Shown: piece after piece, positions 5,195 to 24,025 of the stretch
Layout of the letters: each line of letters begins with the position of its first letter
Numbering within the stretch: the first letter of the stretch is position 1
Virus record (IMG/VR): IMGVR_UViG_3300037294_000109
Location: 1-25,291 of that record
DNA length: 25,291 bases
Reading direction: 5' to 3' (one strand)
From: a virus
Made by a program: the position numbers and the translations under genes
The notes under the pieces: generated by a model
The model's input: only the letters and a program-made list of their open reading frames with translations
Told to the model about the DNA's origin: nothing
Databases searched by the model: none

Positions 5195-5390
5195 CAGCCA
5201 ACCTCACTTCAATCTGGTCAGTTATGGTGAGCCAAATGTCAATCCCACCCACCAAAATTGCTACTTGGTCAGGCATGAAGTAATCAGCCCTAACCCCTTG
5301 GACTTCACCGACTATGTAAGTGTTCTCATTATTTGGGCGATTGATGGTCAAATCAACCACATCCCCAATGTTCAGTTCTTGAGCGTTCAT
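5187..5390 (-). CDS. Small hypothetical protein between exonuclease and annealing protein, 67 aa
   Basis: A 67-aa beta-rich protein (NIGDVVDLTINRP, TYIVGEVQGV, VAILVGGIDIWL, DQIEVRLADV) that reads like a single small barrel, perhaps SH3- or OB-like. That is a by-eye guess. It is tied to both neighbours: its ATG shares one base with the exonuclease stop (TAATG), and its 3' end overlaps the annealing-protein start by 8 nt. This placement makes a role as an accessory to the exonuclease-annealing pair plausible. No family recognised. Confidence 0.65.
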   Translation of the reverse strand: MNAQELNIGDVVDLTINRPNNENTYIVGEVQGVRADYFMPDQVAILVGGIDIWLTITDQIEVRLADV

Positions 5391-6259
5391 TAGTTTCCTT
5401 TCCTAGTTACTAAAAATGGCGTTCCAGACCCTCTGGATTGCCTACTAAACATGTGCTGGCCGTTTACCATCCCACGCTTTGCATTTCCCATAGTATCAAT
5501 GACCTGGCTCTTAAGTGCAAGTGCCACAGCCTTAGCCTTTGATTCAGCTTCAAGTGCTCCACTTAAAGTAATACCGAGCTCACCCAATTCCACTTGAGAA
5601 TCCTGGATGTTTGGGTTCATCAGCCTCACGCTTTCGTAGGTGCTGGTTGACCCATCCCAATCTGGTGCGGTCTTTTCATCCACGCATTGCAAAAATTGTT
5701 CAACCATCATCATGTCTGCAGATTGCTGAAATGCGTCAGCCCTTACCTCAAATTCACGATAGTCAGACCCGCCAATTAGCACAGCCACATAAGCCTTTTG
5801 GAGACCAAGGGTACTCATGTACCATTGGACCTGTGTGAGGTAATAATCAGGCACCCCATCTGTCCAATCGTCTGGGTATTTTGCGGTCTTGATTTCGACC
5901 ACGCTAAGAGAGCCGTCAGGCTCAACCGCCAGGCCGTCAACATTTGCAACCTGGAATGAGTATTCAAGACTTTGCCAGGTGCCAACATCACGCTGAATAG
6001 TCAGCTCTGGGTGTTCGTCAGCGAACTTGTCTAGCACCACCGCTTCTAGTCTGCGGCCCCACTCCATCGGTGGGCTGTCTGGTATCTGGTCAGAAATGTG
6101 TCCTGAGAATTTTGCCCAGGCTGTATAAGGTGACTCCCATTTGTTTAGCCCCGCTATGGTGCCAACCAGGGAACCTCCCACTTTTCCTTTGCGTAGTTCG
6201 TGCCACTCTGGTTGTGAGCTGTCAAAAGTGCCCAGGTGTTTTGCTGTTTGGATTTGCAT
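5390..6259 (-). CDS. YqaJ-type (lambda exonuclease-like) recombination exonuclease, 289 aa
   Basis: A 5'-3' exonuclease that would resect double-stranded ends to make single strands for the annealing protein. It has the YqaJ/lambda-exo PD-(D/E)XK features in order: KVGGSLVGTIAGLNKWESPY (about residues 26-45), MEWGRRLEAVV with E66/E72, ANVDGL with D108, VVEIKTA with E122 and K124 (the ExK), and the QVQWYM helix (143-148). The C-terminal roughly 90 residues are less conserved and end in a helical segment. It is the first gene of the left operon, with an AAAGGA Shine-Dalgarno before the ATG at 6259 and a divergent regulatory region upstream. Paired with the annealing protein it forms a two-component phage recombination system. 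Confidence 0.88.
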   Translation of the reverse strand: MQIQTAKHLGTFDSSQPEWHELRKGKVGGSLVGTIAGLNKWESPYTAWAKFSGHISDQIPDSPPMEWGRRLEAVVLDKFADEHPELTIQRDVGTWQSLEYSFQVANVDGLAVEPDGSLSVVEIKTAKYPDDWTDGVPDYYLTQVQWYMSTLGLQKAYVAVLIGGSDYREFEVRADAFQQSADMMMVEQFLQCVDEKTAPDWDGSTSTYESVRLMNPNIQDSQVELGELGITLSGALEAESKAKAVALALKSQVIDTMGNAKRGMVNGQHMFSRQSRGSGTPFLVTRKGN

Positions 6260-6343
6260 TTTTTCCTTTCATTGTGTGAGAATCATAACCTACATGAGAG
6301 GACATACATTTTGATAACTAGAAATGTGCTACAAATCTGGGAC
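6260..6343. promoter_or_regulatory. Divergent regulatory region between exonuclease operon and zinc-ribbon/WhiB genes
   Basis: This 84-nt gap is where transcription must start in both directions. On the minus strand TATGAT lies roughly 25 nt upstream of the exonuclease ATG and is a fair -10, but no good -35 precedes it at 17 nt. On the plus strand TACAAA (6330-6335) ends 8 nt before the zinc-ribbon ATG, which would give an almost leaderless transcript; TTGATA at 6311-6316 is only 13 nt away and too close for a standard -35. Either promoter may depend on an activator, and the WhiB-like protein encoded next door is an obvious candidate. Inference only. Confidence 0.4.
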
Positions 6344-6493
6344 ATGGATTGCGCTAAATGCGGCACTATGTTTACAGAGCAAGCAAGCAAAATTCCAACC
6401 TGCCAATCTGAGGTCATTAAGTATGGCTGGGAAGCTGGCTGGAGTGTCACCAGGTCTGAGAAGCAGTATTGCCCAGGGTGCCTAAATGTTTGA
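6344..6493 (+). CDS. Zinc-ribbon small protein, 49 aa
   Basis: One of only two plus-strand genes. The product MDCAKCGTMFTEQ... has CxxC (C3, C6), a lone C20 and a C-terminal CPGC (C43, C46), a compact four-cysteine zinc ribbon with two Trp residues in the middle. The open frame extends further upstream, but the ATG at 6344 places CxxC at the very N-terminus, as expected, and lies just after a possible -10. The stop overlaps the WhiB start by 8 nt, so both are translated together. Such ribbons often bind DNA, RNA polymerase or another protein; a partner role for the regulator downstream is plausible but unproven. Confidence 0.65.
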   Translation: MDCAKCGTMFTEQASKIPTCQSEVIKYGWEAGWSVTRSEKQYCPGCLNV

Positions 6494-6764
6494 GAGCCGT
6501 GAGGCTAGACAACTCTGGAATACATTGAATGAAAAAATTGAGGATTTGAAAGTAATTCCTGGATGCCGAGACAGTGACCCTGATGCCTGGTTCCCAACCG
6601 AGACACCAGGAATGGGCCCTGTCTATAACACCGCCAGAAAACTCTGCAATAGGTGTCCAGTCCAGGCACTTTGCCTTGAGTATGCCATTGTGAACAATGA
6701 GGCTCACGGGCTCTGGGGGGGTCTTACATACAGAGAGCGGCTAAAGCTAAAAAGGAACAGATAA
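6486..6764 (+). CDS. whiB-like: WhiB-like transcriptional regulator, 92 aa
   Basis: Fe-S cluster regulator of the actinobacterial Wbl family. The four cysteine ligands are present in the right spacing: C27, then CNRCPVQALC giving C54, C57 and C63. The GLWGG beta-turn (75-79) and a basic C-terminal tail (RERLKLKRNR) for DNA contact follow. Length is normal (85-100 aa). Wbl proteins usually act with the region-4 domain of the primary sigma factor; a phage copy in mycobacteriophage TM4 blocks host WhiB2 function and causes superinfection exclusion. The ATG at 6486 has AGGG 7 nt upstream and overlaps the zinc-ribbon gene by 8 nt. It is followed by a strong terminator and points toward the lysis cassette. 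Confidence 0.92.
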   Translation: MFESREARQLWNTLNEKIEDLKVIPGCRDSDPDAWFPTETPGMGPVYNTARKLCNRCPVQALCLEYAIVNNEAHGLWGGLTYRERLKLKRNR

Positions 6765-6776
6765 TCTAGGCATAAA

Positions 6777-6811
6777 AAAAAGACCCCCAGCAATTAGCTA
6801 GGGGTCTTTTT
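6777..6811. terminator. Bidirectional intrinsic terminator
   Basis: A near-perfect hairpin: an arm of A-tract plus GACCCC (6777-6787), an inner AGC/GCT pairing with loop AATTA (6792-6796), and the complementary GGGGTC plus T-tract (6801-6811). A single C/A mismatch separates the inner and outer stems. A-tract and T-tract flanks make it work in both directions. On the plus strand it ends the zinc-ribbon/WhiB transcript 12 nt after the WhiB stop; on the minus strand it ends the late operon about 45 nt after the holin stop. It therefore insulates the late genes from the left operon. Confidence 0.88.
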
Positions 6812-6857
6812 ATTGGAGTGTAACTAGTAATTCCTAGTCAATCCGCTTGACTACTTT

Positions 6858-7055
6858 TTAGGCTTTCGACTTGGCCACAATGGATGTCAGGATAGATAGC
6901 ACAGCCGCCCCACCTGCCACGCTAATCAATCCAGCGTAGTCAATGCTAAAGAGGCCAACACTGCCAGCACCAAGGGCCGCAATGGCCGCCTGAGCAAATG
7001 TCTTGATGGCTCTCTCACCAGCGTAGCTCCAAAATTCTAGGGTTAAAATTTTCAA
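6858..7055 (-). CDS. r1t-type holin, 65 aa
   Basis: Small membrane protein that forms the lysis-timing lesion in the host membrane. The sequence FWSYAGERAIKTFAQAAIAA (about residues 8-27) followed by a Gly-rich hydrophobic segment and SVAGGAAVLSILTSIVAK (45-62) matches the Lactococcus phage r1t holin family, which typically has the (D/E)RA(I/V)KTFAQ motif and ends LLTSIAS-like. Two transmembrane segments are expected, with a short charged C-terminus (KSKA). It overlaps the preceding two-TM gene by 4 nt (ATGA) and is the last gene of the late operon, directly before the terminator. Confidence 0.88.
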   Translation of the reverse strand: MKILTLEFWSYAGERAIKTFAQAAIAALGAGSVGLFSIDYAGLISVAGGAAVLSILTSIVAKSKA

Positions 7056-7354
7056 TAGTCTGTGTCCTGTCTGTTTCGTTTTACATCTTCTATGGTTGCG
7101 CTGGCTGTGTAGGCCGTTGCAATAATGCTTAAGAGTGCCACCCCGCCAATGACCAGTTGATTGCTTACACCTGTGTCAAAGAAAAAGGTGATTGCGCCAA
7201 AAACAATCATTGCCACAGCTAGGCGATACGAGCCGTAGATTAGCCGCCGCCTAAATTTCCAGGTATCAGAGCTTGAGCTCGGTGTTGCACCTAGAAAAAA
7301 GATTCCATCTAGGACCGATAGACACGCTTTTTTTACAGTGGCCTTTTGCAACAT
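7052..7354 (-). CDS. Two-TM membrane protein of the lysis cassette, 100 aa
   Basis: A 100-aa protein with a basic N-terminus, a Ser-rich stretch (ATPSSSSD), a KFRRRL patch, two hydrophobic segments (about residues 43-59 and 65-83) and a charged, hydrophilic C-terminus (EDVKRNRQDTDY). I chose the ATG at 7354 because AGAGG lies 7 nt upstream; a GTG at 7360 is in frame. It overlaps the endopeptidase gene by 22 nt and the holin by 4 nt. Membrane proteins in this position in actinophages are often second holins or antiholins; this one could regulate lysis timing. No named family recognised. Confidence 0.75.
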   Translation of the reverse strand: MLQKATVKKACLSVLDGIFFLGATPSSSSDTWKFRRRLIYGSYRLAVAMIVFGAITFFFDTGVSNQLVIGGVALLSIIATAYTASATIEDVKRNRQDTDY

Positions 7355-7830
7355 GGGCACACCTCTGGCTCAGCGCCTTTTATGTTAGCCATAATTAGCT
7401 TGTAGACATCAACCTTGTCGGCAGTCACCCCAAATACGCCCTTGAGTGTTTTTGATGCTGTTACATGGACATGAGGTCCTGAGCTAACCCCACTTAATCC
7501 GAGAAGTCCTATCGTCTGGCTCTTTGTGACCTTCTGCCCGACCGAATAACCAGGCTTAGAGTCCATGTGGCAATAGCCCAGATACCAAATAACGCCATCT
7601 TTATCCATGGCCGTTTGAACTACTACCCAACCTAAGACATCTGAGAACTGAATCAGTCGAATAGTGCCTTTGGCAATAGCGGGGATGCGTGTGCCAAGAG
7701 GTCTGGCCCAGTCGGTTCCCGAATGGGGTTGCATCTTGTTGGCTTTGCGAAATGCTGACATCTCGCCATAGTGCGATGTTATGTATTTGGCATCGTAGAC
7801 GAGCCGCCAATCAGCAAATCTAATAGCCAT
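7333..7830 (-). CDS. M23-family peptidoglycan endopeptidase (endolysin), 165 aa
   Basis: Cleaves peptide cross-bridges of the host cell wall at lysis. The zinc site of M23 (LytM/lysostaphin-type) enzymes is complete: HSGTD with H36 and D40, YCHMD with H88 as catalytic base, and PHVHV with H120 and H122. The glycine-rich QTIGLLGLSGVSSG strand lies just before the last motif, as usual. The start ATG at 7830 overlaps the upstream stop by one base (TAATG). There is no signal peptide, so release depends on the holin. An odd feature is the C-terminal CPCCKRPL, a possible metal-binding or disulfide tail in place of a recognisable cell-wall-binding domain. Confidence 0.88.
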   Translation of the reverse strand: MAIRFADWRLVYDAKYITSHYGEMSAFRKANKMQPHSGTDWARPLGTRIPAIAKGTIRLIQFSDVLGWVVVQTAMDKDGVIWYLGYCHMDSKPGYSVGQKVTKSQTIGLLGLSGVSSGPHVHVTASKTLKGVFGVTADKVDVYKLIMANIKGAEPEVCPCCKRPL

Positions 7831-8069
7831 TAGATAACCATCATAATCGAGTTGATGATTGAGACCACGCCAGCGACCAAAGCGGCCCAAGCTATTTTCT
7901 CAATCCATGCGGATTTGGCTTGTTGTATCTCCAATGTAGATACACGCTCAGGCATGTTGTCAAGATAGCCGAGCTTAGCGGTCAGTTGAATTAGTAGGCG
8001 TTCATTTTCCAGTTGCTTTGCGTAAAGCATTTGGAGCGTGACCCTAGCGTGAGGCTCCCGCTCTTCCAT
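7830..8069 (-). CDS. Coiled-coil protein with C-terminal TM segment, XhlA-like, 79 aa
   Basis: The N-terminal part (about residues 8-50) is helical and charged with heptad-like leucines (MLYAKQLENERLLIQLTAKL). The C-terminus is one hydrophobic segment (IAWAALVAGVVSIINSIMMV). This layout matches haemolysin XhlA-type and related phage lysis proteins, in which a coiled coil is held on the inner face of the membrane. It starts the lysis block immediately before the endopeptidase, with 1-nt overlaps on both sides. Assignment rests on topology and position, since the sequence is too short for certainty. Confidence 0.65.
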   Translation of the reverse strand: MEEREPHARVTLQMLYAKQLENERLLIQLTAKLGYLDNMPERVSTLEIQQAKSAWIEKIAWAALVAGVVSIINSIMMVI

Positions 8070-23783: not shown

Positions 23784-23789
23784 AGCCCC

Positions 23790-23818
23790 AGTTTATCGTT
23801 ACATCAGGGCTAGGTCAA
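23790..23818 (-). promoter_or_regulatory. Sigma-70-type promoter, predicted leaderless start
   Basis: Minus strand: TTGACC (23813-23818), 17-nt spacer, TAAACT (23790-23795). The -10 ends 7 nt before the A of the primase-polymerase ATG (23783), so transcription should start on the start codon or within 1-2 nt of it. There is no Shine-Dalgarno before this ATG. Leaderless mRNAs are common in Actinobacteria. This may also be a main promoter for the packaging and structural genes downstream. Confidence 0.72.
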
Positions 23819-24025
23819 GTTTATCTTGGAATTGCTTGGTGCTCTACAGCCCAGTAAACAAAGGGGTCGAAAGCCTCGGATTTTGCACACACAGCTATCC
23901 ACAGCACCTCTCCGCCCTACCTAGGGGGTGGGGAGGGGGTCCCTGCCCAGGGTCGAGAGCCGCAAAGAATAAGGGCTAAAAGAGCCTTTTTAGGGGACCT
24001 GTGGGAGGTACTAGGTAGAGCACTA
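23819..24025. other. G-rich non-coding region, candidate packaging (cos/pac) site
   Basis: No credible gene in this stretch. It contains a G-rich tract on the plus strand (about 23924-23941), a CCCTG-CC-CAGGG hairpin (23941-23952), a CCTAGG palindrome just before the G tract, a DnaA-box-like CTATCCACA (23895-23903, one mismatch to the consensus) and, at about 23970-23990, a short GGCT/AGCC hairpin followed by five T on the plus strand. A non-coding GC-rich patch between an HNH gene and the terminase genes is a usual place for a cohesive-end site. That role is inference. Confidence 0.4.

Follow-up and report, generated by a model that had tools for sequence, protein, structure and literature searches.

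A four-cysteine protein gene overlapping a WhiB-like gene in an inverted two-gene module of a putative actinophage

WhiB genes rank among the commonest regulators of actinophages. The WhiB of S. venezuelae (8dy7/8dy9) acts on RNA polymerase (RNAP) together with a partner, WhiA. That actinophages carry WhiB is well established (PMC8612146; PMC10202952), and the presence of several whiB genes in one actinophage has already been noted (PMC10914622, PMC6802176). The WhiB of mycobacteriophage TM4 (hereafter WhiBTM4) competes with host WhiB2 (PMC6282962) and is, according to a 2021 survey, the sole phage WhiB investigated for biological function in infection (PMC8612146). Single substitution of WhiB3 residues F31, F32 or W76 by alanine abolishes binding to region 4 of sigma-A, and these residues are equivalent to F17, F18 and W60 of WhiB1 (PMC10245118). 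A published survey of gene neighbourhoods found that synteny is cluster-specific.

The window analysed here, an entire virus record of 25,291 bases that may itself be a fragment, contains a whiB gene locked to the gene of a four-cysteine small protein (hereafter the ribbon). Like WhiBTM4, a phage member of the Wbl family (PF02467), its WhiB is phage-encoded and has the cluster cysteines, the G[LIV]WGG turn, the sigma-contact aromatics and a short basic end. In the window, whiB runs opposite to the remaining genes and is locked to the ribbon, whereas no coupled four-cysteine partner is known for WhiBTM4. The multi-whiB actinophages are the same kind of phage, but in the lineage of the window an unrelated four-cysteine protein takes the first place. 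The openly searchable full texts on WhiB, zinc ribbons and phages give no description of the ribbon/WhiB pair. A partner gene locked to whiB provides a compact, testable handle on phage WhiB action at the host sigma factor.

Layout of the module and its surroundings

The first-pass annotation had described ribbon and whiB as the only plus-strand genes, and every other gene-like ORF of the window indeed lies on the minus strand (Table 1). These minus-strand genes take up 94% of the window; the longest stretch they leave free (6260-6857) is the gap occupied by the module. Its orientation was also correctly described, divergent from the YqaJ exonuclease and replication genes and convergent with the r1t-holin-like gene and M23 peptidase, as was the bidirectional terminator. 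The terminator hairpin is flanked by A and T tracts, with z = -6.2 on the plus and -6.4 on the minus strand (equalled by 0 of 200 shuffles), and in ribbon-bearing relatives it is preserved through compensatory changes. Canonical sigma-70 promoters ahead of the ribbon did not exceed chance. Neither RNA families nor tRNAs were found in the window. Homology to phiPsal1 (a phage of Pontimonas salivibrio), the presence of WhiB itself and a GC content of 49.5% suggest an actinobacterial host from an aquatic habitat, perhaps a member of the Microbacteriaceae.

Table 1. Features of the module and the genes that border it.
Feature	Position	Strand	Remarks
YqaJ-type exonuclease	5390-6259	-	Pfam YqaJ 2.6e-22; opens the recombination/replication operon; synteny anchor
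Divergent control region, exonuclease/ribbon	6260-6310	.	51 bp; no consensus sigma-70 site
Shine-Dalgarno (SD) site AGAGGA	6297-6302	+	8 nt before TTG 6311; equivalent SD at the other inspected ribbon loci
Four-cysteine small protein (ribbon)	6311-6493	+	60 aa; TTG start (most likely); frame, SD and N-terminus conserved in 14 lineages
Earlier-proposed ribbon start, internal ATG	6344-6493	+	49 aa; not conserved
SD-like site for whiB, AGGG	6475-6478	+	within the C-P-G-C codons; 7 nt before ATG 6486
Overlap of whiB start and ribbon stop	6486-6493	+	8 nt, ATGTTTGA; 8-19 nt in relatives
WhiB-like protein	6486-6764	+	92 aa; Pfam Whib 5.2e-18; PHROG WhiB; PDB WhiB/WhiB1; Foldseek WhiB1:SigA
Bidirectional intrinsic terminator	6777-6811	both	divides module from late operon
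Lysis end of late operon	6858-7890	-	syntenic in relatives
r1t-holin-like gene	6858-7055	-	late operon, lysis end
Small protein	7052-7360	-	late operon, lysis end
M23 peptidase	7333-7890	-	late operon, lysis end

The WhiB and ribbon proteins

The second gene had been proposed to encode a WhiB-like protein, and this identity is secure, the Pfam score (65.8 bits) being far above the curated cut-off of 23.6 (Whib, PF02467). The cluster cysteines C27, C54, C57 and C63 are invariant and follow the pattern C-Xn-C-X2-C-X5-C, the G[VIL]WGG beta-turn motif is present as GLWGG (75-79), and the protein ends in the short basic sequence KLKRNR. Its best solved sequence relative is the S. venezuelae WhiB in the RNAP-WhiA-WhiB complex (E 2.6e-13), which has a similar length and short tail; WhiB1 was matched as well. 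An AlphaFold model of modest confidence (68.8) gave structural matches exclusively to WhiB proteins, including WhiB1 bound to SigA. W35, F36 and W77 align with the sigma-A region 4 contacts F17, F18 and W60 of WhiB1. A sigma contact is a reasonable reading given the retention of these residues, which occupy positions essential in WhiB3, and the phage protein probably binds region 4 of host sigma-A and redirects or blocks host promoters.

The ribbon cysteines form a CxxC (C14, C17) and a CxGC (C54, C57) motif. Frames at 6344-6493 and 6486-6764 with an 8-nt overlap exist as first annotated, but the ribbon start proposed there, ATG 6344, is very probably incorrect. Translation most likely starts 11 codons upstream at TTG 6311, which is preceded by a well-placed SD where ATG 6344 has none at proper spacing. 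The upstream residues IW[DE] are conserved and the extension is constant in length in the nearest clade, whereas the internal Met is replaced by Ile in L037. In the 16 further loci examined the gene starts at the equivalent N-terminal position, with TTG or ATG and AAAGGA/AGAGGA-like sites ahead, and AlphaFold models the N-terminal extension as confident strands (mean pLDDT of the whole protein, extension included, 86.7). The ribbon is thus 60 rather than 49 aa long, and the divergent region, earlier given as 6260-6343, shrinks to 51 bp.

Conservation of the ribbon frame at the protein level had been set beforehand as a check on the module, and it is evident. Between the window and its nearest clade, ribbon identity is 62%, synonymous sites are almost saturated and omega for codons 1-58 is 0.11-0.17, while the other two frames share 36-41% and are broken by stops. 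Across 14 lineages identity to the window protein is 21-62%, and in 18 aligned sequences from these lineages C14, C17, P29, W44, C54 and C57 never change, so that both putative metal knuckles of CxxC type are invariant. The SD-like site of whiB inside the ribbon frame also has counterparts, with GGGT/GGGGTG at the equivalent position in most relatives.

To which family does the ribbon belong? No Pfam family matched above its cut-off, and a PDB fold search with the ribbon model gave only chance-level matches (none with E <1), with no solved zinc ribbon among them; the zinc-ribbon fold named in the first-pass annotation is therefore a candidate only. The best PHROG match is weak (E 1.5e-4; PHROG 926 / 12041 / 17873) and leads to families of unknown function which, like the ribbon, comprise small cysteine-rich phage proteins but, unlike it, are not tied to WhiB. 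Weak matches to PHROG 926 (E 3e-4 to 7e-4) are confined to the window clade, more divergent ribbons matching other PHROGs or none, and phrog_926 had no match in 25 WhiB-bearing virus records that do not contain a ribbon. Among predicted structures, the best fold match is BFVD A0A8S5MEX6 (TM 0.81); a fold match at TM 0.81 is recorded for a 64-aa siphovirus protein, and weaker ones for proteins of mycobacterium, arthrobacter and microbacterium phages. No ribbon was detected in bacterial genomes by pattern scan or in named phages by tblastn. A scan of viral contigs with the single ribbon protein returned nothing because the exact 8-residue stretch it uses is common to no relative. Descent of the ribbon from a degenerate WhiB copy was ruled out by hhalign against the first of the tandem WhiBs described below (0.7% probability).

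Distribution of the pair and natural variants of the slot

Scans of 2.9 million viral contigs anchored separately on ribbon, WhiB and exonuclease gave concordant results; they used degenerate patterns, built for the ribbon from its closer relatives, which very divergent ribbons elsewhere would escape. Every complete ribbon from the ribbon-first and exonuclease-first scans has a WhiB overlapping its 3' end, and neither scan found an unlinked ribbon. The exonuclease-anchored scan, which is blind to both module genes, yielded 44 loci: the overlapping pair is present in 41, one is cut by a contig end and two (L136 and L137) have WhiB alone. The pair occurs in at least 14 WhiB lineages when these are delimited at 80% WhiB identity. 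The distances of ribbon, WhiB and exonuclease correlate with one another (Spearman 0.73-0.83), which indicates that the slot has for the most part been passed on as one unit.

The linkage anticipated in related phages is therefore seen throughout the syntenic lineage, but the broader claim of constant pairing does not extend to phage WhiBs at large. Among the best 80 loci of the WhiB-anchored search the ribbon is present in 19 and absent in 61, where a broad ribbon HMM had no match near WhiB; its four weak matches (E 0.008-0.04) are distant from WhiB. Pontimonas phage phiPsal1, with genes partly homologous to those of the window, also has WhiB without ribbon. Since most phage WhiBs lack it, the ribbon can be rejected as a general companion or cofactor of these proteins.

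Sister phages carry other genes in the same position. In L040-L056 the slot holds two tandem WhiBs (e.g., L041:6621-6878 and 6926-7219), in L063, L083, L087 and L089 a single WhiB, and in two syntenic records of 31 and 33 kb (L136:2670-2966 and L137:2648-2968) WhiB stands alone with the ribbon absent. The latter are natural comparisons for the role of the ribbon, and the three versions of one slot (ribbon+WhiB, WhiB+WhiB, WhiB alone) are directly comparable. The first tandem WhiB retains the cluster and sigma-contact parts but has no basic tail, ending just past GIWGGTxPxER; in all nine aligned copies it stops at, or at most 2 residues past, the ER/DR after GIWG. Such a protein is expected to bind sigma without binding DNA, and its presence as the first gene of the slot is consistent with a sigma/RNAP-related function for whichever protein is encoded there. 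It is not homologous to the ribbon, and the shared position is accordingly weak evidence of shared function.

Expression signals differ between these versions. In tandem-WhiB relatives TAnnnT lies 11-13 nt before the start in 8 of 12 first copies and 9 of 10 second copies, against a background of 4.2%, although the loci are related and the counts hence not independent. Several second copies also have TTGACA about 17-18 nt further upstream. This arrangement suggests separate leaderless transcripts for the tandem WhiBs. At ribbon loci TAnnnT is absent before both the ribbon (0/6) and WhiB (0/6). With no separate whiB promoter, expression of whiB would be tied to that of the first gene only where this gene is the ribbon, a version that would place both proteins on one message.

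Possible roles of the ribbon

Conservation of the pair suggests that both proteins serve one as yet undescribed function in the takeover of host transcription. We tentatively favour, at somewhat under an even chance, a module locked by translation, whose WhiB would dock on the sigma-A of the host, with the ribbon as an accessory of this complex. A single mRNA would arise from a promoter in the 51-bp divergent region and end at the bidirectional terminator. Ribosomes would translate the ribbon from TTG 6311 and restart on whiB within the last ribbon codons through the embedded SD, so that both proteins are made together. WhiB with its [4Fe-4S] cluster would dock on region 4 of the principal sigma factor of the host and redirect or block host transcription during infection. 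The ribbon, with its four cysteines probably binding Zn, would join the sigma/RNA polymerase complex, either as adaptor or to supply a DNA/RNAP contact missing from the short-tailed WhiB.

That the ribbon belongs to the sigma/RNAP complex of WhiB is the more doubtful part of this scheme, though still a serious possibility. It is suggested by the genetic coupling, by the tail-less WhiB in the slot of sister phages and by analogy with S. venezuelae WhiB and its partner, even though that partner, WhiA, binds DNA, is encoded by the host and bears no relation to the ribbon. The pair in 41 of the 44 exonuclease-anchored loci and the purifying selection on the ribbon support the scheme. Against it, adjacency and vertical inheritance are no proof of joint action, the adjacent exonuclease being equally conserved, and the ribbon is absent from two syntenic loci and from almost every other phage with WhiB. 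A further-reaching version is less likely than not as a whole: the ribbon would be a dedicated WhiB partner, representing a new class of tiny phage proteins that join WhiB on host sigma-A region 4/RNAP, and would give the short-tailed WhiB its promoter specificity or blocking activity in place of the tail-less first WhiB.

The two genes might instead be co-expressed for timing only, WhiB antagonizing a host WhiB paralogue, as WhiBTM4 does with WhiB2, and the ribbon serving as an independent takeover or counter-defence protein. By family resemblance the WhiB might, in the manner of WhiBTM4, repress host whiB2 and exclude superinfection, and control of the divergent promoters, as raised in the first-pass annotation, would be a further possible role. 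Though less likely than not, an independent small takeover protein is nearly as likely as a role in the same complex. Small four-cysteine proteins of similar predicted fold, with no known function, occur in many phages, and elsewhere among phages WhiB usually comes without a ribbon; but an overlap of 8-19 nt and the lack of any unlinked ribbon in 14 lineages exceed what timing would need, and the ribbon has no PADLOC match among defence systems.

Less probable again is a ribbon that binds nucleic acid and autoregulates the divergent region, balancing the exonuclease operon against the module while WhiB acts elsewhere. Its position as first gene, adjoining a region devoid of consensus promoters, would suit such a regulator, but the protein is not notably basic, the PDB fold search gave no DNA-binding fold, and a non-exhaustive search identified no operator-like site. 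The least tenable proposal, that the frame is a leader ORF whose peptide is itself unimportant, would account for the whiB start and SD within the last ribbon codons but is rejected on the strong amino-acid constraint (cysteines, P and W unchanged throughout 14 lineages in which synonymous sites are saturated) and the confident predicted fold.

Other features of the window and its relatives were noted in passing. The 242 nt at 23784-24025, flanked by minus-strand genes, contain no convincing gene, the longest such stretch besides the module, and could contain a late promoter or packaging signal. Close relatives carry mosaic whiB alleles (L009:2518-2796, L016:5393-5671 and L017:745-1023), in which N-terminal and cluster-binding parts are shuffled among phages that otherwise hardly differ, a sign of recombination within whiB. 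The M23 peptidase of the window, which has a CPCC motif at its C-terminal end, shares about 35% identity with those of its own clade but 85-92% with those of the tandem-WhiB phages L041, L044, L054 and L055, a pattern showing that this lysis gene near the module has been exchanged.
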